Origin: Chloroflexota bacterium | Lineage (GTDB): Bacteria > Chloroflexota > Limnocylindria > P2-11E | Direction of reading: 5' to 3' | Length of the DNA: 34,969 nucleotides | Assembly (NCBI GenBank): GCA_027310565.1 | Contig: DAIDAP010000013.1 | Location: 1-34,969, forward strand | Shown here: positions 171-34,969 of the stretch, piece after piece | Layout: the number at the start of each line of letters is the position of its first letter | Position numbering within the stretch: position 1 is the first letter of the stretch | The notes under the pieces: generated by a model | Seen by the model: the letters and a program-made list of their open reading frames with translations, nothing else | What the model was told of the DNA's origin: nothing | Databases searched by the model: none | Translations under genes and position numbers: made by a program

Positions 171-2276
171 TTACTTCGTCTTCGTGATCTCGGCCGCCAG
201 GTTCGGCGGCAGGACCTCGTAGTGCGACGGCTCCATCGAGTACGAGCCGCGGCCCTGGGTCATCGACCGCAGGTCCGTGGCGTACCCGAACATCGTCGCG
301 AGCGGCACGTTCGCGGTGATGACGCGCGCGTTGGCGCGCTCCTCCATCCCGCTCACGTGGCCGCGGCGGCTGTTGATGTCGCCGATCACGTCGCCCATGA
401 ACTCGTCGGGCACCGTGACCTCGACCTTCATGATCGGCTCGACGATCACCGGGCCACCCTTCTGGACTGCCTCCTTGAGCGCCATCGAGCCCGCGATCTT
501 GAACGCCATCTCGCTCGAGTCGACCTCGTGCTGCGACCCGTCGACGACGCTCACCTTGAGGTCGACGACCGGGTAGCCCGCGACGACGCCGTTCTCCATG
601 GCCTCGCGCATCCCGGCCTCGATCGCCTTGGCCCACTCCTTCGAGAGCGCGGTCCCCTTGATCGCCCACTCGAACAGGAAGCCCTCGCCGCGCCGGAGCG
701 GCTCGAACTCGGCGATGACGTCGCCCCACTGGCCCTTGCCGCCGGACTGGCGCACGTAGCGGCCCTGCGCCTTCACCGCGCGCGTGATCGCCTCGCGGTA
801 CGCGACCTGCGGCTTGCCGATGTTCGCCGCGACCTTGAACTCGCGCTTCATGCGGTCGACGATCACGTCCAGGTGCAGCTCGCCCATGCCGGCGATGATC
901 GTCTGCCCGGACTCCTCGTCGGTGTGGACGCGGAACGTCGGGTCCTCCTCCGCCAGGCGCGCGAGGGCGAGCGACATCTTCTCCTCGTCCGCCTTCGTCT
1001 TCGGCTCGACCGCGACCTGGATGACCGGCTCGGGGAACTTGATCGTCTCGAGGACGATCGGGTGGTCGGGGTCGGCGAGCGTATCGCCGGTGAAGGTCTG
1101 CTTCAGGCCGACCGCGGCGGCGATGTCGCCCGCGGCGACCATCTCGACCTCCTCGCGGTGGTTCGCGTGCATGAGGAGGATGCGGCCGATGCGCTCCTTG
1201 CGGTCCTTGGTCGTGTTCTGGACCGTGTCGCCCTGGCGGAGCACGCCGGAGTAGACGCGGAAGAACGCGAGCTTGCCGACGAAGGGGTCGGAGGCGATCT
1301 TGAAGGCGAGGGCGCTGAAGGGGGCCTCGTCCTCGGCCTTGCGCACCAGCGTCTCGCCGGTCCTGGGATGGGTCCCCTCGACCGGCGGCACGTCGAGCGG
1401 CGACGGGAGGTAGTGGACGACCGCGTCGAGCATCGGCTGGACGCCCTTGTTGCGCAGCGCCGCGCCGGCGAGCACCGGGACGATCGTCCCGGCGATGGTC
1501 GCCTTGCGCAGCGCGGCGCGGATCTCGTCGGAGGTGATGTGGTGCTCCTCGAGGTAGCGGTGGAGGAGCGCGTCGTCGGTCTCGACGACCTTCTCGACCA
1601 TCGCCTCGCGCGCCGCCTCGGCCGCGGCCCTCATGTCGTCGGGGATCTCCCCCACCACCGGCTCGGCCGGCGTGTCGAGCGGCCAGGTGAGCGCCTTCAT
1701 CTCGACGAGGTCGATGACGCCCTTGAAGCGGTCCTCGCTGCCGATGGGGAGCTGGATGACGCAGGGATTCGCGCCGAGCCGGTCGACGATCATGCCGACG
1801 CAGCGCGCGAAGTCCGCGCCGAGGCGGTCCTGCTTGTTGATGAAGCAGATGCGCGGGACCTTGTACTTGTCGGCCTGGCGCCAGACCGTCTCGGACTGCG
1901 GCTCCACGCCGGCGACGCCGTCGAACACGACGACCGCGCCGTCCAGGACGCGCAGCGAGCGCTCGACCTCCACGGTGAAGTCCACGTGTCCGGGCGTGTC
2001 GATGATGTTGATGCGGTGGTCGCTCCAGAAGCACGTCGTGGCGGCGGCGGTGATGGTGATACCGCGCTCCTGCTCCTGGGGCATCCAATCCATCGTCGCG
2101 GCGCCCTCGTGGACCTCGCCGATCTTGTAGATCTTCTTGGTGTAGAAGAGGATCCGCTCGGTCACGGTCGTCTTCCCCGCGTCGATGTGCGCGATGATGC
2201 CGATGTTGCGGTAGCGCTCGAGCGGGTACTCGCGCGCCACGCCGGCCGTCTTCTGGGTCTTCGGCTCTACTGCCAT
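171..2276 (-). CDS. fusA: Elongation factor G
   Basis: Translocase GTPase of translation, 701 aa, the usual full length. The G-domain motifs appear in order: AHIDAGKTT (P-loop, about residues 25-33), RGITI (switch I), DTPGHVDF (G3) and NKQD (G4; the common form is NKMD). Domains II-V follow and end in EITKTK. The frame is open for 30 more codons upstream, but those would run through rpsG; the ATG of MAVEPKTQ, 13 nt behind the rpsG stop, gives the expected N-terminus leading into [13 protein letters not shown]. It is co-directional with rpsG and tuf and probably co-transcribed. Confidence 0.98.
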
Positions 2277-2289
2277 CACTGCCACTTCG

Positions 2290-2760
2290 CTACCACTTGT
2301 AATGGCTGAAGGCCTTGTTGGCCTCGGCCATCTTGTGGGTCTCTTCCTTGCGGCGCACGGCGCCACCCGCGTTGTTCATCGCGTCGACCAGCTCCCCGGC
2401 GAGGCGCTCGGACATCGACTTGCCCGGGCGCTTGCGCGCGGCCTCGATGATCCAGCGCATCGCGAGAGAGCTGCGGCGGTCGGCGCGGATCTCGACCGGG
2501 ACCTGGTACGTCGCGCCACCGACCCGCCGCGGCTTCACCTCGATCAAGGGGGAGGCGTTGCGGATCGCGGTCTCGAAGACCTCGACACCCGGCTTGCGCG
2601 TCGTGTTCTCGGCGAGCGTGAGCGCGCCGTACACGATGCCCTCGGCCGTGGAGCGCTTGCCGCGCTGCATGAGCTTGTTGTTGAACTCGGCGATGGTGAC
2701 GTTGCCGAACTTGCGGTCCGGCACCGTCTTGCGCTCCTGGGGGCGCGCGCGACGCGGCAT
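2290..2760 (-). CDS. rpsG: 30S ribosomal protein S7
   Basis: 156 aa, the normal S7 length. S7 binds the 3' major domain of 16S rRNA and starts assembly of the 30S head. The N-terminal MPRRAR, the central [11 protein letters not shown] segment and the C-terminal [15 protein letters not shown] are typical. Its ATG overlaps the rpsL stop in a TGATG arrangement, with AAGG about 7 nt upstream inside rpsL, so translation is probably coupled to rpsL. Confidence 0.98.
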
Positions 2761-3194
2761 CAGGAGGCCTTCTTCTTCGGATTGGGGTTCTTCGCACCGT
2801 AGAGCGAGCGGCCGCGCTTGCGGTCCTTCACCCCGGCGGTGTCGAGCGTGCCGCGGACGATGTGGTACTTCACCGACGGCAGGTCCGGCACCGCGCCGCC
2901 CTCCACCAGGACGACCGAGTGCTCCTGGAGGTTGTGGCCGATGCCGGGGATGTAGGCGGTCACCTCCATGCCGTTCGTGAGGCGGACGCGGGCGATCTTC
3001 CGGAGAGCCGAGTTCGGCTTCTTCGGGGTCATGGTGCGGACGACCGTGCAGACGCCGCGCTTCTGCGGCGCGCCACGCTTCAGGACCGTCTGGCGGCCCT
3101 TGAGCGAGTTCCAGGTGGTCCGGAGGGCCGGGGTGTCCACCTTCTTCTTCTGTAGCTTCCGCGGCTTGCGGATCAGCTGCGCGATCGTCGGCAC
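2760..3194 (-). CDS. rpsL: 30S ribosomal protein S12
   Basis: S12 is the decoding-centre protein of the 30S subunit. The start is most likely the GTG that gives [10 protein letters not shown], matching the family N-terminus; AGGAG lies 11 nt upstream. An in-frame ATG at 3251 would add 19 residues that S12 proteins lack. The 144-aa product is longer than the roughly 124 aa of E. coli S12 because of a ~14-residue insertion between TPALR and PQKRGVCT, as in Bacillus-type and, as I recall, Chloroflexota S12. The conserved [11 protein letters not shown] and [12 protein letters not shown] segments are intact. Any promoter must lie in 3195-3370; I found no convincing -35/-10 there. Confidence 0.95.
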
Positions 3195-3370
3195 GGTCTT
3201 CCCTACTCCTGTCGCTTTCGTCTGGGTTCGGCCCAGCGCGCGCGAACGCATCCGGACGTGTCCTTGTGTGTCTTCGCTTGGACTCCCCCGACCGGGAAGC
3301 CGCCCCCTGGAGGGTCGGTCCCCGGGCGCAGCGCGGCCGCCGTCACAAGATCGCGACTGGGCCGATGCGC

Positions 3371-3394
3371 GAAAACAGCCGCCCGAAGGCGGCT
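3371..3394 (-). terminator. UUCG-loop hairpin upstream of rpsL
   Basis: A perfect 7-bp stem (AGCCGCC/GGCGGCT) closes a TTCG tetraloop when read on the minus strand and is followed by GTTTTCG. It resembles a short intrinsic terminator for a minus-strand transcript entering from the right. No intact minus-strand gene now lies just upstream (3.4-6.3 kb is plus-strand), so it may be a leftover of an older rpoC-rpsL junction. The U-tract is only four residues. Confidence 0.5.
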
Positions 3395-3455
3395 ATTCGC
3401 CTCGAAAGACGCCAAACGTGAGTGTACGGACCCCGATGGCGGGCGGTCAACTGAG

Positions 3456-3700
3456 GTGGCGCCGGAGGCGCGGCGGCGAGCGCCGGCGTTCGGCCGCGGA
3501 CCGCCCGCAAGGCGGCGCCGCACTTCCCCGCGCCTGACCGAGCTCGTCAGACGCTACCTCGTCGCCAAAGAGGCGTCCGGCCGCTCCCCGGCGACCGTCG
3601 ACTGCTACCGCGTGCGGCTTGCGCGGCTCGTCGCGCGCCTCGGCGACCGGCCCCTCACGCGGATCCGGGCCGACGACCTCCGCGCCTGGCTCCTCACGAT
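3456..3700 (+). pseudogene. Tyrosine recombinase, N-terminal stump
   Basis: The frame encodes an arginine-rich lead and then LTELVRRYLVAKEASGRSPA, continuing with TVDCYRVRLARLVARLGDRP and ending in the TRIRADDLRAWLL helix. This is the core-binding (SAM-like) N-terminal domain of phage-type integrases. It stops being integrase-like at about 3697; no catalytic domain with the R...HxxR...Y residues follows in any frame nearby. The GTG at 3456 is a possible start but is not certain. The high G+C matches the host side, and the break coincides with the shift to lower-G+C island DNA. It is probably the remnant of the element's own integrase or of an older one. Confidence 0.7.
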
Positions 3701-3847: not shown

Positions 3848-3994
3848 GCCGTATGTATATAGACCAGAGCGACTCGGTGCTGTACCGCCGGCGCGCCCGG
3901 CCACTCCTCCCACGGAGTATTGCGAACGCCAGAAAGTTTACTCCCGCATTCGCTAACCTTGCCCGCGAAACGACGGTTCCCGGGCGAGGTGCAA

Positions 3995-4810
3995 GTGCCC
4001 CGGCCACTCAGCGTCAACGCCATCGATAGGCTTGGAGAGAGACTGGCGTCCAACAGCGGGAGTGCCGACGATCTCGAACGATTCGACGAATTGCGAATGT
4101 ATTACTTCGGACTCGGCATAGTGGCAGCGGACCGTGTAAGTCAGTGCGTCGGCATAGCTCCAACTTGGCGACTCAAGGATCGCGAACACACGCTCTACAA
4201 GGTAAGAAAGCTGAGAACGAAGCTCAGCCGAATGCAGGATCTGGTGGGACTCAGGATACCGAGCGACGGCGTGGAGACGCTAGCGCAGCAGGACGCCCTT
4301 GTCGAGGCGATAAGGGCGTGCTTCAAGGTGGCAGAGGTCGTCGATCGACGAGAGAAGCCAACACATGGGTATAGAGCTGTTCATATCATAGTCAAAGTTG
4401 ACGGCTGTGACGTTGAGATTCAGGTCCGAACCTCCCTTCAGGAGCTGTGGGCGCAGGCGATGGACAAACTCGCCGACCTTTTTGGTCGCGCGATCCATTA
4501 CGGCGAGATCCCAGATGATGTCGGTGATTCAGCGCGAAGGGCTGCGCTCAAGGGGTTGCTCGATGCTGCCGGCAGCGCCTCCCTGTCGCTCGGTGAATTC
4601 GAACAGCAGGAGCGATTGCTGCTAGAGGCGCAAAGGACGCAGCAGCGGCTCCACACCGCTCAGGCCAGCGTCAGCACCAAGGAGCGACTGGCCGAGCTGG
4701 ACCGGGAGCTGGAGCGCCTCCATCTGCGCCTCGAGCAGCGGCGGGTGGCCTTGAGACGCGCATTCACCGAACTCAAAGGGCGCGCACACAGCCTGGGCGA
4801 ACCGGCATGA
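3995..4810 (+). CDS. RelA/SpoT-domain small alarmone synthetase-like protein, candidate toxin
   Basis: About 271 aa with a single RelA_SpoT synthetase domain, no HD hydrolase, no TGS and no ACT domain. Visible motifs, from this start: LKDREHTLYKVRKL (ATP-binding K/R region, about 60-74), DLVGLRI (82-88), HGYRAVHI (124-131) and VEIQVRT (140-146); these are the residues expected of an active pyrophosphokinase. The C-terminal third is a charged, heptad-like helix rich in L, E, Q and R. Family members make (p)ppGpp or, as toxSAS enzymes, (p)ppApp or pyrophosphorylated tRNA. The GTG at 3995 has GGGCGAGG about 6 nt upstream; TTG 3920 and GTG 3989 are in-frame alternatives. It overlaps the next small gene by ATGA, which suggests a toxin-antitoxin pair. 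The toxin role is inference. Confidence 0.8.
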   Translation: MPRPLSVNAIDRLGERLASNSGSADDLERFDELRMYYFGLGIVAADRVSQCVGIAPTWRLKDREHTLYKVRKLRTKLSRMQDLVGLRIPSDGVETLAQQDALVEAIRACFKVAEVVDRREKPTHGYRAVHIIVKVDGCDVEIQVRTSLQELWAQAMDKLADLFGRAIHYGEIPDDVGDSARRAALKGLLDAAGSASLSLGEFEQQERLLLEAQRTQQRLHTAQASVSTKERLAELDRELERLHLRLEQRRVALRRAFTELKGRAHSLGEPA

Positions 4811-5055
4811 AGTACTACCTCATCCTGTACGACCGAAAGGCCGGTCAAATCGTCGGGGCCCCCAAGGAATTCTCAGAAGAGAGTCAGGCTGACGCTCTTC
4901 AAGAACGCTTCCTCCGAGAGCGAGAGGCGGTACCAGGGGTGGAGGTGATGCTTCTGGCTGCCGAATCGCTCGCGGTCCTCAAGACGACGCATGCGCGCTA
5001 CTTCTTCGATTTGGACCATCTCGCTTCACCTAAGGATGAGCGGTCACGTGAGTGA
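4807..5055 (+). CDS. 82-aa protein coupled to the RelA-like gene, candidate antitoxin
   Basis: It starts inside the stop of the RelA-like gene (ATGA), so the two are translationally coupled. The protein begins MKYYLILYDRKAG and contains LQERFLRERE and THARYFFDLDHL; it looks like a small alpha/beta protein with no signal peptide or membrane segment. I believe similar small proteins follow RelA/SpoT-domain genes in actinomycetes, but this is memory only. An antitoxin for a toxSAS enzyme is the most economical reading; an accessory or regulatory subunit is also possible. No catalytic motif is visible. Confidence 0.7.
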   Translation: MKYYLILYDRKAGQIVGAPKEFSEESQADALQERFLREREAVPGVEVMLLAAESLAVLKTTHARYFFDLDHLASPKDERSRE

Positions 5056-5296
5056 GCGGCGGTCTACGCGCTTAGGGACAGCGGCGTCGCGAGCATCCAT
5101 CCTCATCACGACGACAGAGGCGGCGCGGATCCTACTCGTTACCCCTGCACGCGTGCGACAGCTCGCAGGTCAGGGGCGCCTAAAAGGTGTTCGACACGGC
5201 CGGGCATGGGCGTTTGACCGCGCGAAGACCAGAGCGTTCGCCAAATTGCCGCGAACACGAACTGGACGGCCGAATAAATCCTTGCGTAATCGTTAG
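5036..5296 (+). CDS. Small helix-turn-helix (excisionase/MerR-type) protein
   Basis: About 86 aa. The core ITTTEAARILLVTPARVRQL followed by AGQGRLKGVRHGRAWAFDRA is the HTH_17 type found in excisionases and small MerR-like regulators: helix-turn-helix, then a short wing that ends in the WxFxR pattern. A basic tail (RTRTGRPNKS) follows. The ATG at 5036 and the GTG at 5048 are both possible; GTG has AAGGA about 11 nt upstream. It overlaps the end of the 82-aa gene and ends 15 nt before the methyltransferase, so it may belong to either unit. Possible roles are control of the methyltransferase or a recombination directionality factor of the island; neither is shown. Confidence 0.7.
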   Translation: MSGHVSERRSTRLGTAASRASILITTTEAARILLVTPARVRQLAGQGRLKGVRHGRAWAFDRAKTRAFAKLPRTRTGRPNKSLRNR

Positions 5297-5311: not shown

Positions 5312-6367
5312 ATGTCCGTGCCCTCAAGAGCGCTGACGAAGGCGTATTCAACGAAGCTCGGCGCTGCGTACGTGGGCAATGGTCTCGATCTTCTTCGATC
5401 GTTGAGGCCAGCGAGTGTCGCCTTGGTGCTGACCTCCCCGCCGTTCGCGCTTACGCGGCCCAAAGCCTACGGTAACGAGGGCATCGATGACTACATCAAG
5501 TGGTTCATGCCATTCTCTCGCCTCATTTACCGCGTTCTCAAGCCGAATGGGAGCTTCGTTCTCGACCTTGGTGGTTCATGGGTACCGGGTCGGCCGATTC
5601 GAAACGTCTATCAGTTTCAGCTTCTACTGGAGCTCGTCCAGGCTCGTTCTCATCGCTTTGTGTTGGCCGAGGAGTTCTATTGGCTCAATCGGGCTAGATT
5701 ACCCGGGCCGATCGAGTGGGTGAACGTGCAGCGAATCCGCGTCACCGATGCGGTGAATGTGGTTTGGTGGTTGGCAAAGACCGACCGACCTTTCGCGGAT
5801 AACACCGCGGTGTTGCGCCCCTACTCGCCAAGCCAGCTCAAACTCTTCGAGACGGGCTACAACTCAGGTGCGCGCCCGTCAGAGTGGAATATCGGCCGCA
5901 CAAGCTTCTCACGCGACAACGGCGGCAGCATCCCGTCTAATTTCATACGTGGCGACGACGACGGTGAGGCCGAATACGGCTACCCCGCGACACTCGCGCC
6001 ACAACCGACAAACCTCTTGGCGGGGTCTAACACTGCGTCACGCGACCCATACTTGAAGGCTTGCCGGGAACTCGGGCTAACGATCCACCCGGCACGGTTT
6101 CCAGTTCACTTCGCCAGCTTCTTTGTCCGATTCTTGACGCGCGAGAACGACGTCGTTGTGGATCCGTTCGCTGGCAGCAACACGACGGGCTGGGCCGCGC
6201 AACTGAGCGGGCGTCGGTGGCGCGCGGCCGACCTGGACCGGGACTACGTCGCCGGATCGGCGGCACGTTTCGGATTGGATCCAACACTTGTCCTACGCAA
6301 GAGTCAGGCAAGTCCTGGCGTCAGGTTGACTCCGACGTCCGCGAGGCCATTGCGAAGAGGTCGGTAA
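5312..6367 (+). CDS. PvuII-family DNA N4-cytosine methyltransferase
   Basis: 351 aa, complete. Motif order is that of beta-class amino-methyltransferases: catalytic motif IV TSPPFALTRPKAYGN near residues 41-55, then YRVLKPNGSFVLDLGGSW, the target-recognition region with AEEFYWLNRARLPGP, and finally the SAM-binding motif I DPFAGSNTTG near residues 291-300. The SPPF form and the almost linear match to the M.PvuII layout (IHPARFPVHFASFFVRFLT before motif I) indicate an m4C enzyme, possibly for CAGCTG; the target is inference. No PvuII-like endonuclease or Xre-type C-protein lies beside it. Its 3' end overlaps the convergent 123-aa gene by 47 nt. It may be an orphan, or may provide self-marking for the neighbouring helicase/ATPase operon. 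Confidence 0.88.
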   Translation: MSVPSRALTKAYSTKLGAAYVGNGLDLLRSLRPASVALVLTSPPFALTRPKAYGNEGIDDYIKWFMPFSRLIYRVLKPNGSFVLDLGGSWVPGRPIRNVYQFQLLLELVQARSHRFVLAEEFYWLNRARLPGPIEWVNVQRIRVTDAVNVVWWLAKTDRPFADNTAVLRPYSPSQLKLFETGYNSGARPSEWNIGRTSFSRDNGGSIPSNFIRGDDDGEAEYGYPATLAPQPTNLLAGSNTASRDPYLKACRELGLTIHPARFPVHFASFFVRFLTRENDVVVDPFAGSNTTGWAAQLSGRRWRAADLDRDYVAGSAARFGLDPTLVLRKSQASPGVRLTPTSARPLRRGR

Positions 6368-6692
6368 ACCGAAGCTGATCGTTATCGTGAAGTCTGCCAA
6401 TCTCCGCTACTCCCGCTTCGGCCAGTCGCTCCGCAATTTCGTAGGGGGTCCCAGGCTCGTTCGGGTATAGCTCAAGGATCACGTTGCGTATCGTGCCGTC
6501 TCCATCGAACGAGCCCACGTTCAGGAATGTCTTCATTCGGATGCCGCGCTCAGCAATGACTCCCGATGCGATAGCGAGTCCGATTCCCAAGCGAAAGCCG
6601 TCACGCATTTCGCCGATCAGCCCTTCCTCCTTCAAACTTTGAAGGATCTCCTGACTGCGATCTGAGTATCGAATGGTCATGTTCTCGTCCAT
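6321..6692 (-). CDS. 123-aa protein, last gene of helicase/DndD-like operon
   Basis: Its ATG overlaps the ATPase stop (TGATG), so it is coupled to it; a GTG one codon earlier is an alternative. The N-terminal part, MTIRYSDRSQEILQSLKEEG then FRLGIGLAIASGVI, suggests a helical DNA-binding fold with loose resemblance to DndE (a short protein with a Ser-rich start, an LK motif and an R-x-G/A helix). The second half has DGDGTIRNVILELYP and a final helical part, ending AMASRTSEST. I do not recognise it with certainty. As a small subunit encoded next to an SMC-like ATPase it probably binds DNA or the ATPase. Its 3' end overlaps the convergent methyltransferase gene. Confidence 0.7.
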   Translation of the reverse strand: MDENMTIRYSDRSQEILQSLKEEGLIGEMRDGFRLGIGLAIASGVIAERGIRMKTFLNVGSFDGDGTIRNVILELYPNEPGTPYEIAERLAEAGVAEIGRLHDNDQLRFTDLFAMASRTSEST

Positions 6693-8662
6693 CACTCGAG
6701 TACCACGATCTCACTCTCGTTTGAGCTCTTCTTCACGATGCTGTACTCGCGCTCGATCTTTGTGCGCACGCTAGCGAGGTCCCTGCCGCGATCGACCTCA
6801 CCTGCATGGACTAAGAGTGTCACCTGATCCGCCATGGTGGGTACGAACTTCAGGATGTTCTCTCGGTGCGTCGGATCGAGTCGGCCAAATGGCGTATCCA
6901 TAACGATAGGACCTCGTCGAACGGCATTCTTGTTGAGTGCCCCAATGAGGCTCAGCGCGACAATCTGCTCCGCGCCGGCGGCGCGAACGGGCACGTCGTC
7001 GCCGTCCGCGTCCACGATCGTCAGTGCGTATGTCGGACTGATTCGTAGTCCTCGGTACGACTTGTCTGTGGTCAGTTGTCTGAAGATCGTCGTCGCGTCG
7101 TGTTCGACCGTGCTGCGGAGGCGATCCCGCAGTTGCGAGATCGCCGCTTGGAACACGGCGATGAGCTGGTCGTAGGCCGCGACTTCGCGGTTGAGGCGCT
7201 CGAGCTCGGGACCGCCAAACTTCGAGATCTTCTGCCGGTTGGCCGCAGCAGCTGCGTGTTTCTCGGCCATCTCGAGGACTCGCGCCTTTATCGTCTCCTC
7301 AAGCACTCCGATTTCTTTGGTTATCTCGTCGTATTCCCGCCGGCTCCTCGCAATCTCATCATCCGCGTGATCGCGAAGCCTCTCCTCTATCTCCTCCCTC
7401 TTAAGGGTGAGGTCGGCACGCGCGGTACGAATCTCGAGGAGCCGTCGTTCGATGTGTCGAATCGCTTCAGGCGCACCCGTCCCACGAACACTCGTAAGTC
7501 GCCGAACCGATTGCAGCGATTCCGCCTGGTCGCCAACGGCATCCGGGACGGCTCGAAGCTCGGCTTCGAGCGAGCTGACCTCTTCGGACCACCTCCGGTT
7601 GCCTCTGTCCAGGCTGGAGCCGCAGACGGGGCAGTTCCCCTCCTCGCGAATCCTTGTTAGCTGTCTAAGGCGCGTTCGAAGCTCTGCCGCCTTCCGGGCA
7701 GTATCGGCGTTCCTCTCGAGTGATTGCTGTACGTCATGAAGCCGCGCACTTAGTCGCGGTACGACTAGGTCCTTCCATGCGTCCACGAGCCGGGCGCGAC
7801 GCTCCTCGCTGAGGTCCTGCTGTTCAAGGTCGAGCTGAGTAAGCTGCGCGCGAATCAGATCCAGGCGATCCATCTCGCTCTCGATTGCCGCCGTAAGGCG
7901 CAGCCGTTCCGCAAGCTGCGACTGCCGATACTGCAGATCCTCGCGCTGCTTCTGCAGATCGCGTATGTCTGCCTCAATCTCCTCGATCTCGCGATCTAGA
8001 TTCGCTGCAATCGTGGCAAACACCTTTGCCGCCTGGTCCTTCCGGGCAAGGTTTTGCTGTCGCCTCGCAGCTTCGCGGTGGTTTATCCGCAGATCCGCGA
8101 TCGCGTTCGAGAGTGCGGGCACGCCGAGGATGTCCTCGATAGAGTCACGAATCGTCGCCGCCTGCTCGTCCTTGTCGGCGAGCAGACGCTCGTATTCGTC
8201 CAGCTGCTCTCCATCAAATAGGAAGAAGCGCGCTATCCGCTCAGGCAGGAGCTGATTGATCTCGGACGGGCGAGCATCGACGTGGAATCCGTCTCGTTGG
8301 AGGAAGATCTTCTCATCGAAGTCACTGTCCACGCTCGGCTCTCCAGGGCCGCGCGGCTGAATCGCCCGCGTCAGTTCGTACTCAGTGCCGTTCTGCTGCA
8401 TGGCAAGCGTCACGGACATCTTCCAGTCGCCGCGTTTTGCCGCCTCCTTGTTGACGAGGTGTTTGCGCCGGATGTCCTGGCCAATTCGGTCCTTGACGGT
8501 CCCGTACAGCGCCCAACGGATGGCGTTGAAGAGGCTGGTCTTCCCACTCATGTTTGCGCCATGCACAACAACGATGGGCTTGGCGCCGTCGAGCCTCACA
8601 TCCTGGTGCCCGCGGTAAGGCCCGAAGTTCACGAGACCGATTCGTCTAAGACTTGTCGGCAT
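6692..8662 (-). CDS. DndD/SMC-like ABC ATPase with zinc hook
   Basis: 656 aa, about the size of DndD. In order: Walker A GANMSGKT (35-42); the DndD-type FFLFDGE (146-152); a long coiled coil (about 195-335); a Rad50-like hook CPVC (344-347); a second coiled coil to about 495; an ABC signature region AAGAEQIVALSLIGALN; and Walker B with D-loop in VMDTPFGRLDPTHREN (about 587-602). Such proteins dimerise through the hook and use ATP to clamp or scan DNA. The gene overlaps the 75-aa gene by 17 nt and the 123-aa gene by 1-4 nt, so stoichiometric expression is likely. It is not evidence of phosphorothioation: no DndB/C or cysteine desulfurase is present. Related ATPases serve in Lamassu-like, Dnd and ABC three-component defence systems. 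Confidence 0.88.
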   Translation of the reverse strand: MPTSLRRIGLVNFGPYRGHQDVRLDGAKPIVVVHGANMSGKTSLFNAIRWALYGTVKDRIGQDIRRKHLVNKEAAKRGDWKMSVTLAMQQNGTEYELTRAIQPRGPGEPSVDSDFDEKIFLQRDGFHVDARPSEINQLLPERIARFFLFDGEQLDEYERLLADKDEQAATIRDSIEDILGVPALSNAIADLRINHREAARRQQNLARKDQAAKVFATIAANLDREIEEIEADIRDLQKQREDLQYRQSQLAERLRLTAAIESEMDRLDLIRAQLTQLDLEQQDLSEERRARLVDAWKDLVVPRLSARLHDVQQSLERNADTARKAAELRTRLRQLTRIREEGNCPVCGSSLDRGNRRWSEEVSSLEAELRAVPDAVGDQAESLQSVRRLTSVRGTGAPEAIRHIERRLLEIRTARADLTLKREEIEERLRDHADDEIARSRREYDEITKEIGVLEETIKARVLEMAEKHAAAAANRQKISKFGGPELERLNREVAAYDQLIAVFQAAISQLRDRLRSTVEHDATTIFRQLTTDKSYRGLRISPTYALTIVDADGDDVPVRAAGAEQIVALSLIGALNKNAVRRGPIVMDTPFGRLDPTHRENILKFVPTMADQVTLLVHAGEVDRGRDLASVRTKIEREYSIVKKSSNESEIVVLE

Positions 8663-8873
8663 CGGTACCTCCGCGCTCTTGAGTAGTTAGCTCGACGAAA
8701 GGCTGCACAATCTCTCGTATGCGTGATGGTGCTTCCGGACGACCTGCATCAAACTGGACTCGCTCTTCGATCCGATAGATCTTCTCAACAAGATCCGCGG
8801 ACAGGCCCGGTGCTAGGGCACCCCGCTGCTCCTGAAGAACCACTAGCGCCCGAGCCGCAACATCCTCAGTCAC
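8646..8873 (-). CDS. 75-aa small subunit between helicase and ATPase genes
   Basis: Starts with GTG overlapping the helicase stop (GTGACTGA, 8 nt) and ends 17 nt inside the ATPase gene. The protein is all-helical by eye: VAARALVVLQEQRG, GLSADLVEKIYRIEERVQF, then APSRIREIVQPFVEL. It has no cysteines and no catalytic motif. The double overlap shows it is a genuine coupled gene and suggests a linker or middle component that connects the helicase-nuclease to the ATPase. Family not recognised. Confidence 0.7.
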   Translation of the reverse strand: MTEDVAARALVVLQEQRGALAPGLSADLVEKIYRIEERVQFDAGRPEAPSRIREIVQPFVELTTQERGGTDADKS

Positions 8874-10932
8874 TGCTCGCTCCCTCGTCCTCCATCATGT
8901 TCGGCTCCCAACCCTCGCGGGCACGCTCCTCATCAAGCGGCACGGCGTACTCCTGCGCGATCCGCCTGATGCGGAAGCGTACGGCCGTGTTGGAGGCATC
9001 ATCGGCGAACCTCGCCGCCCTCGCGATCTCGCTCCCAAGCATTGAGAACCCTGCGGGCTCTACGACGCCCGCCGGCGGCAGCACGATGGCATCGTGGATA
9101 TCGGCGGAGAATTTGCGCGGACTTGACCGGAGAACCCGCCCGCGCCGTTGAATGAACTCGCGCGGATTGCGTGACGAGGCGAGGACTAGTGCGTGATCAG
9201 CGTCAGGAATGTCGACGCCCTCATCGAGACATCTGACGGCAACGAGACATCCCCCAACCGCGCCGAAGTGCGCAAGGGTAGCGGCGCGATCACCTGGCAT
9301 CTCAGCGTAATAGGGCTGAGCCGGAACCGCTGCGCATCTAACCGCATCGACTACCTGGGACAGCTGAGACACCGAGTCGCAGTAAACCAGCCAGCGATGC
9401 CCCGACACATATTCGGCTTGCAGGACTTCTTGCGCCAGCGGCACTTTGCGCTCTGCCTGCTTCACAACTGCGGCACGCTGAATCATCAGCAGTTCAAGGC
9501 GCGCGCGTACCGACTCGTCGAGCATAGCTTCGTCCCCACCGAGAAGACGCGCGATCTCGATCGTAAGAGACTGCCACCGATGAGCTTCAGCCTCAGTGAG
9601 GTGAACAGGATGAATGAAGTAGCGATACGGGCAGATGCGTCCGACTGCGATGCCGTCGCGAATACTGAAGTTCGACTCAATCGCCCCTCGAAAGTACTCG
9701 TCGATGACCTGAGTCCCTGCGGGATCGCCGGCTCGATTGGCGGTAGCGCTAAGTCCGAGGCGGGCACCAGCAGCGACTAACGCCTTGCGGTGTACCGGAC
9801 TGCCTGCGCGGTGCACTTCGTCCACGACGAGCATCAGGTGATCGCCCTCGAGCACGCGCCGGCGGAACTCGTTGGTGCTCGCTGTCTGCACAGTGGCAAT
9901 CGTGACTCGCGGGGGACCTTCACGGCGAGTGAAGCCCTCAACGACGTCGGGCTGCCGCCAGAGATCATTGCCAGCGCCAACCAACAGCCGCTGAAGCGTT
10001 ACCTCGCCGACCTCCATCCGCAGTTCCCTATCCCACTGTTGCAGGAGGTCCTTACTCGGCACGATGATCATCGCTGGTCCTGCAACATGAATCCAATTGT
10101 CGATAGCGCGAATCGCCGTAAGTGTCTTCCCTGAGGACGTCGCGTGGGTCAGTATTCCCGTCCTTCCACGGCGTTCCCAGGCATCAAGGGCCTCCAGCTG
10201 ATGTCTCTGCAGCGTCCTCCGCCGCGGCGCGCCTTCGAGCGAGCGAAAGGCGGCTTCGACACCTGCCGAATTCGCCAGCGGCATCAGTACGGTGCGCGCA
10301 ACATCCGGGAAGTCAACCGTCATCACGTTGGGCTCGACGCCACGCCACAGTCGTTCGAAATAGGCGGCATGTTCCCGGACGCGGCCGGAGTCCTGAGACC
10401 AGGATGTAAAGACTTCAACTGACTCGTGGTTTCCTTTGGGATCCCACGCGAAGGCCGTCTCGTTCGCGGAACCAACAAAACTTACGCACTCGGTGCCGTC
10501 GCTGGCAACACCCACCTTGTCATGGAATATGCCGCGTGCACCGGGCCGAAAGGCCAACTTGATCTCCAGAGCGCGCACAGCAACCAAGGTCGCGAGGAAC
10601 TCAAGCGCCGGCTTCGACGACGCGTCCTGAATCAAGCTCTGTAGCGAGTTCAGGATCAGAGACTCGAAGTCGTCTCGGCGGTCGTATCCCAGCTGTATCG
10701 CCGCGCGGTCTTCCGGGTCCAGCTCCGGCGAGCAGATAAGTTGAATCCGGTTTCCACGCGCTGCAAACTCGGCAATTGGCTCCCGACACAGGTCGATGAG
10801 TGAAGAACGAAAGTACCCGACGGCGCGATCGTAGGTCCTCGCCCGGAGAAGGAGCGGCGCAAAGAACGAGGTACTTAGATCGTCGCGACTTGTCGAATAC
10901 CGCGGCTTGAAGGAGAAGTCTCTAAGCGGCAT
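8866..10932 (-). CDS. PLD-family nuclease fused to SF2 helicase
   Basis: 688 aa from ATG 10932 (GGAAGAGG just upstream); an in-frame ATG at 11004 would add 24 poorly conserved residues and overlap the divergent gene. Residues 1-200 form a phospholipase-D/HKD-type nuclease half: FFAPLLLRARTYDRAVGYF, then HDK at 137-139 with FVGSANET, the usual HxK...GSxN pattern. Residues 235-640 are a superfamily 2 helicase: RRTLQRHQLEAL (Q-like), Walker A ATSSGKT (264-270), DEVH box (371-374), LSATANR (motif III), DEGVDIP (motif V) and QRRGRVLR (motif VI, about 595-602). It is the first gene of a four-gene overlapping operon. The architecture fits ATP-driven translocation with DNA cleavage by the PLD part, as in DISARM- or type-I-like restriction; that role is inference. 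Confidence 0.88.
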   Translation of the reverse strand: MPLRDFSFKPRYSTSRDDLSTSFFAPLLLRARTYDRAVGYFRSSLIDLCREPIAEFAARGNRIQLICSPELDPEDRAAIQLGYDRRDDFESLILNSLQSLIQDASSKPALEFLATLVAVRALEIKLAFRPGARGIFHDKVGVASDGTECVSFVGSANETAFAWDPKGNHESVEVFTSWSQDSGRVREHAAYFERLWRGVEPNVMTVDFPDVARTVLMPLANSAGVEAAFRSLEGAPRRRTLQRHQLEALDAWERRGRTGILTHATSSGKTLTAIRAIDNWIHVAGPAMIIVPSKDLLQQWDRELRMEVGEVTLQRLLVGAGNDLWRQPDVVEGFTRREGPPRVTIATVQTASTNEFRRRVLEGDHLMLVVDEVHRAGSPVHRKALVAAGARLGLSATANRAGDPAGTQVIDEYFRGAIESNFSIRDGIAVGRICPYRYFIHPVHLTEAEAHRWQSLTIEIARLLGGDEAMLDESVRARLELLMIQRAAVVKQAERKVPLAQEVLQAEYVSGHRWLVYCDSVSQLSQVVDAVRCAAVPAQPYYAEMPGDRAATLAHFGAVGGCLVAVRCLDEGVDIPDADHALVLASSRNPREFIQRRGRVLRSSPRKFSADIHDAIVLPPAGVVEPAGFSMLGSEIARAARFADDASNTAVRFRIRRIAQEYAVPLDEERAREGWEPNMMEDEGASSD

Positions 10933-10953: not shown

Positions 10954-11916
10954 ATGGCCACCGATACTTATGCCGTGCACTATACCGACGAGGAGGCCCG
11001 CCACCGTCCCGAGGACTCAACCCTGCGCCGCCAGGCTGCGAAAATCCTCCGACGTAGCGGGCCGACATTGACTGGCGACATCCTATTAGCCCTGCACCGC
11101 GAGCCTCGATGGCGCTCTCTCAAAATCTCCGACCTCGACAGCGCTTTGCGTGGGGCGCCACTCTGGTTCACGAGAATCGGCGAACGCTGGTCCCTCACGG
11201 CGGCGGCAGTGCCAGCAGATGAGCGCGTAATTGAGGCCGCAGCTTGGGAGATCCTTCGGACTCGCGGCCCGCTCCGCGCCTCCGAGCTGGCACGGAGCCT
11301 TGCCAACTTCGGCTTCAGCAAGGGATACATCAGTTTGACCTTGTCGCAGTCAACTCTCCTCGCACGACTGGACGATGGCACGTACTGCGGGGTGGGACAA
11401 GCCAGTTCCCGTCCAAGTCAACAGATTGGGCGAGCCGACGCCCTCTCGGTCCACGCAAGACAGGTCGCTCCCGCAGGTGCCGGCGTGCCAGCAGCCGAGC
11501 CAAGCAGCCTGCGCAGAGGCGATGTGTTGACAACGCGGCGCGAAATCAGCAAGAGGTTTGGAGGCACCCCGTTTCGCGGCATTAGCTACAAGACGGGCGG
11601 CGACTGGGTAATTGTCATATCCAGCGAGCACGGCAGATGGTACGGCTACAAGGACGGCTGGGTCGACGACGACGACGACGAGGCGCGGTTTCTGTATTCG
11701 GGCGAGTGGCGAGGTTGTGGTGACATGTCGATGACCGGCGGCAATGCTGCGGTCAGGGATCGCAGCGGACGCATCTTCCTGTTCGTCAAGGACGCAGGGC
11801 TCTACCGATTCCGAGGCAGATTCTCAGTCGAGGAGGTCCGGCGGCAAGGGATGACTTGCCCGCATTGTGCCAGGACGCATGCCGGCATTCGGTTCTTGCT
11901 TAAACGCTTGTGCTAG
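10954..11916 (+). CDS. Double winged-helix plus ScoMcrA-type SRA-like domain protein
   Basis: 320 aa. The N-terminal half carries two helix-turn-helix units (RRQAAKILRRSGPTLTGDIL and later AAWEILRTRGPLRASELARS). After a proline/alanine linker, residues from about 187 match the SRA-like domain of ScoMcrA-type HNH enzymes: RGDVLTTRREISKRFGGTPF, then GRWYGYKDGW, FLYSGEWRGCGDM and GNAAVRDRSGRIFLFV. In those enzymes this domain reads modified cytosine and an HNH nuclease follows; here there is no HNH, only a short CPHCARTH tail. It may be a reader or regulator without cleavage. It starts only 21 bp from the divergent helicase start and has no strong SD. Its stop abuts the rpoC relic. Confidence 0.72.
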   Translation: MATDTYAVHYTDEEARHRPEDSTLRRQAAKILRRSGPTLTGDILLALHREPRWRSLKISDLDSALRGAPLWFTRIGERWSLTAAAVPADERVIEAAAWEILRTRGPLRASELARSLANFGFSKGYISLTLSQSTLLARLDDGTYCGVGQASSRPSQQIGRADALSVHARQVAPAGAGVPAAEPSSLRRGDVLTTRREISKRFGGTPFRGISYKTGGDWVIVISSEHGRWYGYKDGWVDDDDDEARFLYSGEWRGCGDMSMTGGNAAVRDRSGRIFLFVKDAGLYRFRGRFSVEEVRRQGMTCPHCARTHAGIRFLLKRLC

Positions 11917-12247
11917 AGATCGCGCCTCGCCCGGCTCGGCGATTCCCTCGAGATCCGCGCGGCCTTCCTCGCCGTCCTTGTCCGCCGTCGAGCTACTCGA
12001 CAGCGGGCGGAAACGGCTTGGCCTCTTCCTCCTCGTCGGTACCGATCGTCGCGCCAGGGCGCGCGTGTTCGGCGTTCACTCGAGCTGGTCGCGGCGGGAC
12101 GGAAGACCGGTGCCCACTGAGATGAGCTCGCCGGTGATGAGTTCTCCTTGAGCTCGACCAGCCAGTGGTTCTGGCCAATCATCGCGGCCCCGTAAGGACG
12201 CGCGTGGTCTCCTGGAGCGAGTGACTACTACGAAGACGCAGGTATTG
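11914..12247 (-). pseudogene. rpoC: Decayed copy of the rpoC 3' end
   Basis: Read on the minus strand and allowing frameshifts, this stretch gives LQETTRVLT, then [50 protein letters not shown] and DGEEGRADLEGIAEP. They follow the order of the intact RpoC tail encoded at 28256-28620 ([75 protein letters not shown]). DNA is identical over 22 nt at 12195-12216 versus 28572-28593. At least three frameshifts and in-frame stops destroy it. Only the last ~110 codons are represented. The orientation is the same as the real gene, 16 kb away. No other gene is seen in this interval. Confidence 0.88.
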
Positions 12248-13214: not shown

Positions 13215-14327
13215 TCAGCGCTTCGGGACGACCGCCGTCGCGCGATAGGTGCGCGCCCGTCCGCGGCCCACGATGACGAGCGATCCGCGCTCGACCAGCG
13301 CGCGCAGGTCGGCCGCCGCCGTGAGCTGCGCGACACCGCAGCGCTCGGCCGCCTCCCGGCTCGTCCACACGTGGCCGGCCGCGGCCTCGCGGGCCAGCAG
13401 CGCGCGCCGCGCCTCGGCGTCCATCACGCGCGGCGCCGCCTCCTGCGAGAGCGCCGGCTCGCCGAGCGCGCGCTCGTCGAGGAGCGGCATCGCGTAGGGC
13501 TGGTCCGCGCGCGCACACGCCGCGAGCCAGCGGTACGCCCAGTCCTCGGCGAGCTGCCGCGTCTCGGCGAACATCCACGCGACGCGCGGATGAGACACCT
13601 GAAGCGCCGCGAGCAGGTCGGCGAGCCAGCCCGCGCGCACGTTCCCGGCGGACGCCGCCTTCACCGCGTCGGAGAGGCGGCCCTCGACCACGAGCGCGGC
13701 GTGCGGCGTCGCCGAGAGGTCCGCGAGCGCGAGGGCGAGCTGCCCGCTCACCGCCGAGCTCGCGAGGTCGCTCGGTGTCTTGCGCTCGACCGCCGCGACC
13801 ACGGCATCGTCACGGAGCAGCGCGTAGTCGCCGGCGGGGAGCTTGCGGCGGCTCACCGACACGCCGCGGCCCGAGAAGCGCCAGGGGTAGCGCTCGGCCA
13901 CGTCGACCGCGACGTGGAGGGTCTCGCGGAACGAGCGCGCGAGCGGGACGCGGATGCCCGGACGCGCCCGCGCCATCGAGGCCGGCGAGCGCCAGAAGAT
14001 GAGCGTGCGCCCCGCCTTCTTCGTCCACACGAAGAGCGAGCGGCGGTTCTGACGGCGGCGGAGCACCAGATGAACGGCCGGCCCGACGCGCCAGCACGCC
14101 TCGACCGGCACCTCCTCGATGATCTCGGCCTCCGCCGGCCACTCGCGCAGCTGGTAGCAGAACACGTCGCCGCTGCGCGGCCAGGTCTCGCGCGCCGCGA
14201 GGTAGATGCGGCCCTCGCCGCGGACGGGCAGACGCAGCACGTACGGCAGCCGGCCGCCGCGCGTCGGATCGCGCCCGACCCAGAAGGTGGTGAGGCTATC
14301 GAGCCCCGTGGCGGCGGCCGCGCTCAT
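13215..14327 (-). CDS. ERCC4-type nuclease with C-terminal winged helix
   Basis: 370 aa from ATG 14327; a GTG at 14348 would add seven residues. The middle carries the XPF/ERCC4 nuclease signature GDYALLRDD...VVAAVERKTPSDLAS (GDY and ERKxxxD), whose acidic residues bind metal in structure-specific endonucleases. The N-terminal third (TTFWVGRDPTRGGRLPYVLR onward) is of unknown function. The C-terminal ~50 residues form a winged helix: WTSREAAERCGVAQLTAAAD followed by LRALVERGSLVIVGRGRART. It is not a full XPF helicase and not MUS81. Possible roles are repair or recombination of branched DNA, or defence. High G+C suggests host-type DNA. A fragmentary inverted copy lies just downstream. Confidence 0.82.
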   Translation of the reverse strand: MSAAAATGLDSLTTFWVGRDPTRGGRLPYVLRLPVRGEGRIYLAARETWPRSGDVFCYQLREWPAEAEIIEEVPVEACWRVGPAVHLVLRRRQNRRSLFVWTKKAGRTLIFWRSPASMARARPGIRVPLARSFRETLHVAVDVAERYPWRFSGRGVSVSRRKLPAGDYALLRDDAVVAAVERKTPSDLASSAVSGQLALALADLSATPHAALVVEGRLSDAVKAASAGNVRAGWLADLLAALQVSHPRVAWMFAETRQLAEDWAYRWLAACARADQPYAMPLLDERALGEPALSQEAAPRVMDAEARRALLAREAAAGHVWTSREAAERCGVAQLTAAADLRALVERGSLVIVGRGRARTYRATAVVPKR

Positions 14328-14401
14328 CCTTCGAGGTCGATGATGCACGCCCGCGGCGCGGTCGTTCCTCGTGACGGTGGGTACCGAGGCCGGACGCCGG
14401 G

Positions 14402-28252: not shown

Positions 28253-32590
<4,338 letters not shown>

Positions 32591-32595
32591 GTGCG

Positions 32596-34969
<2,374 letters not shown>

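Follow-up and report, generated by a model that had tools for sequence, protein, structure and literature searches.

Organisation of the four-gene cassette and the adjacent methyltransferase

Four genes lie on the minus strand between positions 10932 and 6321 of the window, that is, the whole 34,969-nucleotide stretch of Chloroflexota DNA analysed here. The first gene, pbeA (8866..10932), encodes a fusion of a PLD/HKD nuclease with an SF2 helicase, 688 aa long from its ATG, with the frame open to a GTG at 11004. It is followed by pbeB (8646..8873) for a small protein of 75 aa, pbeC (6692..8662) for a CxC-type ABC/SMC-like ATPase of 656 aa with a zinc hook, and pbeD (6321..6695) for a predicted DndE-like double ribbon-helix-helix protein of 124 aa from GTG (120-124 aa, later ATG starts giving the shorter forms). 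The operon and the overlaps at its junctions (8, 17 and 1-4 nt, the last depending on the start chosen), as read in an earlier note on this DNA, were borne out by the ORF coordinates. PbeA contains HxK(x5)D as HDKVGVASD at 137, along with ATSSGKT, DEVH, SAT and QRRGR, while PbeC has a zinc hook, CPVC, at 344 in addition to the Walker A sequence GANMSGKT. All the cassette genes are intact, and the motifs of the nuclease, the helicase, Walker A and the zinc hook are conserved. The same compact A-B-C-D order was found again in more than 20 genomes from several phyla and the cassette is, therefore, not a product of chance. The earlier note had proposed to look for such co-occurrence, and its view of the four genes as one unit is supported. 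The stretch at 4-12 kb is poorer in G+C (about 0.60, against about 0.70).

A beta-class DNA methyltransferase gene (5312..6367, plus strand), missed by the earlier note, is convergent to the cassette and its 3' end overlaps that of pbeD by 47 nt. The protein matched PF01555 (6e-28) and the PADLOC profile MTase_II PDLC03323 (1.8e-98), and carries the motifs TSPPF and DPFAGSNTT. In beta-class methyltransferases, SPP[YF] points to N4-cytosine. Judged from its motifs, the mark made by this enzyme is probably on N4 of cytosine, or possibly on N6 of adenine.

Identity of the four proteins

The PbeA protein matched the PADLOC PbeA profile PDLC02707 with 589 bits (3e-177) over residues 27-674, and the Pfam domains PLDc_2, ResIII and Helicase_C were recognised in it. 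The PbeC protein matched PADLOC PbeC PDLC02725 with 538 bits (1.1e-161) and Pfam AAA_23, and a zinc hook was present in every clade PbeC looked at. The equivalog cut-offs of NCBIfam for DndD and dnd_restrict_1 were not reached, the ATPase scoring 183 bits against the DndD equivalog TIGR03185 (cut-off 245.85). The 75-aa protein, searched alone, gave a weak match of 15.1 bits to Sp-DndD PF20306 (cut-off 27.2). When 20 proteins encoded between pbeA and pbeC were aligned, 11 of them matched Sp-DndD, the best at 3.6e-10, and on this sequence kinship we tentatively assign the 75-aa protein to the PbeB / Sp-DndD small-protein group. Since sequence-only search of Pfam and PDB gave nothing useful for the 124-aa protein, its fold was recognised through structure. 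An AlphaFold2 model computed from 25 aligned sequences (pLDDT 84) has two copies of a strand-helix-helix unit, and the best 17 Foldseek matches to it in PDB were all DndE, with probability up to 1.00 and modest E-values (best 0.016). The 124-aa protein is thus modelled with a DndE-like fold and corresponds to PbeD.

The locus is a PbeABCD cassette, also called the CxC ABC-ATPase-DndE system; it is real, intact and of an already described kind. The PbeABCD gene order was described in Haloterrigena jeotgali A29 as part of DndCDEA-PbeABCD (Xiong 2019, PMC6459918), and the A, B, C and D proteins have been described as HKD-SF2 helicase, small protein, CxC ABC ATPase and DndE, respectively (NAR 2024, PMC10853773). 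These accounts and the profile matches for PbeA and PbeC overturn the earlier statement that the operon matches no named system. The related proposal, that it was the strongest candidate for an undescribed antiphage system in the window, was to fall with a match to a named system, and profile search found one.

The window resembles the A29 locus in its order of PLD-helicase, small protein, SMC-like ATPase and small protein. However, the A29 system relies on DndCDEA phosphorothioation, whereas no DndC was found in the genome of the window (97.5% complete), where a methyltransferase stands beside the cassette instead; we therefore do not class the cassette with the phosphorothioate-based DndCDEA-PbeABCD. 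With the CxC ABC-ATPase-DndE systems that have a methylase, the window shares the HKD-SF2 helicase, small protein, zinc-hook ATPase, DndE-like protein and linked methylase, but it shows no MTaX1 match, and HTH_17 and RelA/SpoT-like genes precede its methyltransferase. DndD, Lamassu and DISARM were each rejected as the identity of the locus, their features being weaker or missing. In the Dnd modification systems, DndD and DndE are related to the ATPase and the DndE-like protein found here, but this ATPase stays below the DndD cut-off and bears a zinc hook, and DndC is missing. An SMC-like ATPase is shared with Lamassu, but PbeC scored 128 bits against LmuB as compared to 538 bits against the PbeC profile, and the three other proteins of the operon (PLD-helicase, small protein, DndE-like protein) are those of a PbeABCD cassette.

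Distribution of the methyltransferase and of DndC among PbeA relatives

We compared a sample of at least 80 loci with PbeA relatives, 27 of which (L036-L062) form the clade of the window and 53 of which are others. Methyltransferase relatives were sought within 10 kb of PbeA with an iterated profile of the window enzyme. Among the matches listed, a related methyltransferase was present in 23 of the 27 clade loci as compared to none of the 53 others, while DndC was present in none of the 27 clade genomes as compared to 16 of the 22 other genomes tested, and in L064. In the PbeA tree the window grouped with the methyltransferase loci (30-row set) with a support of 99, and the labels tracked the tree, requiring 2 changes against 13.2 in shuffles. 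Fisher p-values were 3e-15 and 1e-8, which ignore shared ancestry and were obtained with the clade count entered as 22, a slight undercount as the list gives 23/27. DndC is swapped for a methyltransferase throughout the clade, in a near-exclusive manner. The methyltransferase at 5312-6367 is, therefore, likely to be the modification partner of PbeABCD.

Among the clade loci where the enzyme was not detected, L039 and L040 are both truncated close to the contig end, L054 has another methyltransferase-like gene, recognised by eye, in place of a detected beta-class one, and L050 is a further case. In L051 and L057 the methyltransferase lies several kb off, and the convergent arrangement was seen again in L053 and L055. 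The clade enzymes also differ in type: L049, L052, L053, L055, L061 and L062 have a single TSPPF enzyme as in the window, while elsewhere in the clade they come as tandem pairs, or as large proteins in which DPPF motifs occur. Cultured relatives with clade loci include Salinispora mooreana (L055) and Sphingomonas (L041). An Aurantiacibacter plasmid carries the PbeABCD set plus a methyltransferase. MTaX1, which is frequent but not universal in methylase-linked CxC systems and lies there upstream of pbeA (PMC10853773), was found in L036 (fused to HTH_17), L037, L052, L054 and L064, upstream of pbeA in several loci.

Two further arrangements were observed. In L054 (8496-9488) and L064 (8593-9489), methyltransferase-like genes of another type (FAGSAGYS and DPPY by eye; no Pfam match) lie beside MTaX1, where the beta-class enzyme would be. 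A simpler pairing is seen in L012 and L016, where a PLD-less helicase akin to the helicase part of PbeA adjoins a relative of the window methyltransferase.

Upstream genes and genomic setting

Three plus-strand genes (3920-5296) run up to the methyltransferase, neighbouring genes either overlapping or standing 15 nt apart. They encode a RelA/SpoT-like protein (3920-4810; PF04607, 3.6e-12), an 82-aa protein whose gene overlaps the former (4807-5055), and a small excisionase-type HTH_17 protein (5036..5296; PF12728, 1.2e-6) just upstream of the methyltransferase. Among the matches listed, none of the three had a tblastn match in the 80 PbeA-related loci, and they were rejected as conserved parts of the system. 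Across 400 genomes of the phylum, the RelA-like protein had only weak matches, in 2 other genomes. The RelA/SpoT-like and 82-aa ORFs match separate parts of PADLOC PDC-S33 and together cover that candidate; the pair is probably a separate defence candidate. The RelA/SpoT-like and HTH genes, which share an apparent operon with the methyltransferase, could instead be functional parts of a PbeABCD variant, with an alarmone-type growth arrest added to methylation-based restriction and the HTH protein replacing MTaX1, but we hold this to be very improbable.

In a congeneric genome, the matches to window positions 177-3460 and 28266-34931 stand about 2 kb apart, so that about 25 kb (window 3460-28266), including the cassette, is extra here. 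The extra DNA is flanked by the EF-G gene and by rpoB/rpoC. A direct repeat (12021-12216 / 28395-28593, 79% identical) has its second copy in the 3' portion of the rpoC reading frame, close to the edge of the additional segment, and an ERCC4-domain nuclease gene (13215-14348, minus strand) lies near the cassette.

Proposed mode of action and alternatives

From the identity of the parts, the conservation of the cassette and the clade-wise swap, we consider it fairly probable that the locus is a methylation-paired PbeABCD cassette, in which methylation labels self DNA and PbeA, following a scan by PbeC-PbeD, acts on DNA that lacks the label. The methyltransferase would methylate host sites, and the zinc-hook ABC ATPase PbeC together with the DndE-like double ribbon-helix-helix protein PbeD would scan DNA at cognate sites and read self from non-self. 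Where the mark is missing, PbeA, with its HKD nuclease and SF2 helicase, would be engaged and would then cut the invading DNA or block its replication, while PbeB may be a small linker or a negative regulator. Anatomy and linkage are what the analysis shows, whereas the target site, the scanning, the self/non-self reading and the effector action are inferred. The earlier suggestion of a PLD-helicase effector and an SMC-like ATPase as DNA sensor, acting against invaders, gains support as plausible, its scanning and effector steps keeping this conditional standing. In a haloarchaeon all four pbe genes add to virus resistance, and the archaeal phosphorothioate-based system inhibited replication of virus DNA, with cleavage not seen (PMC6459918); other authors hold that cleavage must belong to the action (PMC10853773). 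No experiment on a methylation-paired PbeABCD member was found in the literature searched. Counted against the methylation reading, besides this and the uncleaved virus DNA of the archaeal system, are the clade loci where the methyltransferase was undetected or lies several kb off, as well as MTaX1, usual beside methylases in the clade, which had no match in the genome of the window, though the control search for it matched nowhere either.

Alternatively, PbeABCD may be abortive and independent of the methyltransferase, with PbeC-PbeD sensing a phage structure, PbeA cutting host DNA and PbeB acting as a brake that infection lifts. Both a suicidal mode of action and a regulatory role for the small protein have been put forward for the family (PMC10853773), and solitary PbeAC loci that have no modification gene exist (PMC6459918). 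However, along the PbeA tree a methyltransferase and DndC replace each other almost exclusively, a pattern which implies that the cassette depends on a modification enzyme, and we regard the abortive mode as unlikely. That the cassette needs phosphorothioation, and is orphaned or inactive in its own genome, has a precedent in the tested system, which needs DndCDEA (PMC6459918), but is very improbable given cassette genes that are all intact with conserved motifs, and DndC missing from its own genome as well as, among the matches listed, from the 27 clade genomes. An undescribed defence system, suggested by single-sequence search in which the D protein had no match and the B protein only a weak one, is scarcely credible when the four genes map in order onto PbeA-D, A and C matching their profiles over the full length, D having the modelled DndE fold and B a probable kinship with Sp-DndD.

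The pairing of PbeABCD with methylation, preferred here, has already been suggested in print, since methylases are known to adjoin solitary PbeAC or CxC systems (PMC6459918, PMC10853773); the locus thus belongs to a known kind and is one more example of it. What is new is the sharp split along the PbeA tree between the methyltransferase clade and the DndC-bearing groups, which makes the methylation pairing testable in about two dozen loci, several of them from isolates.
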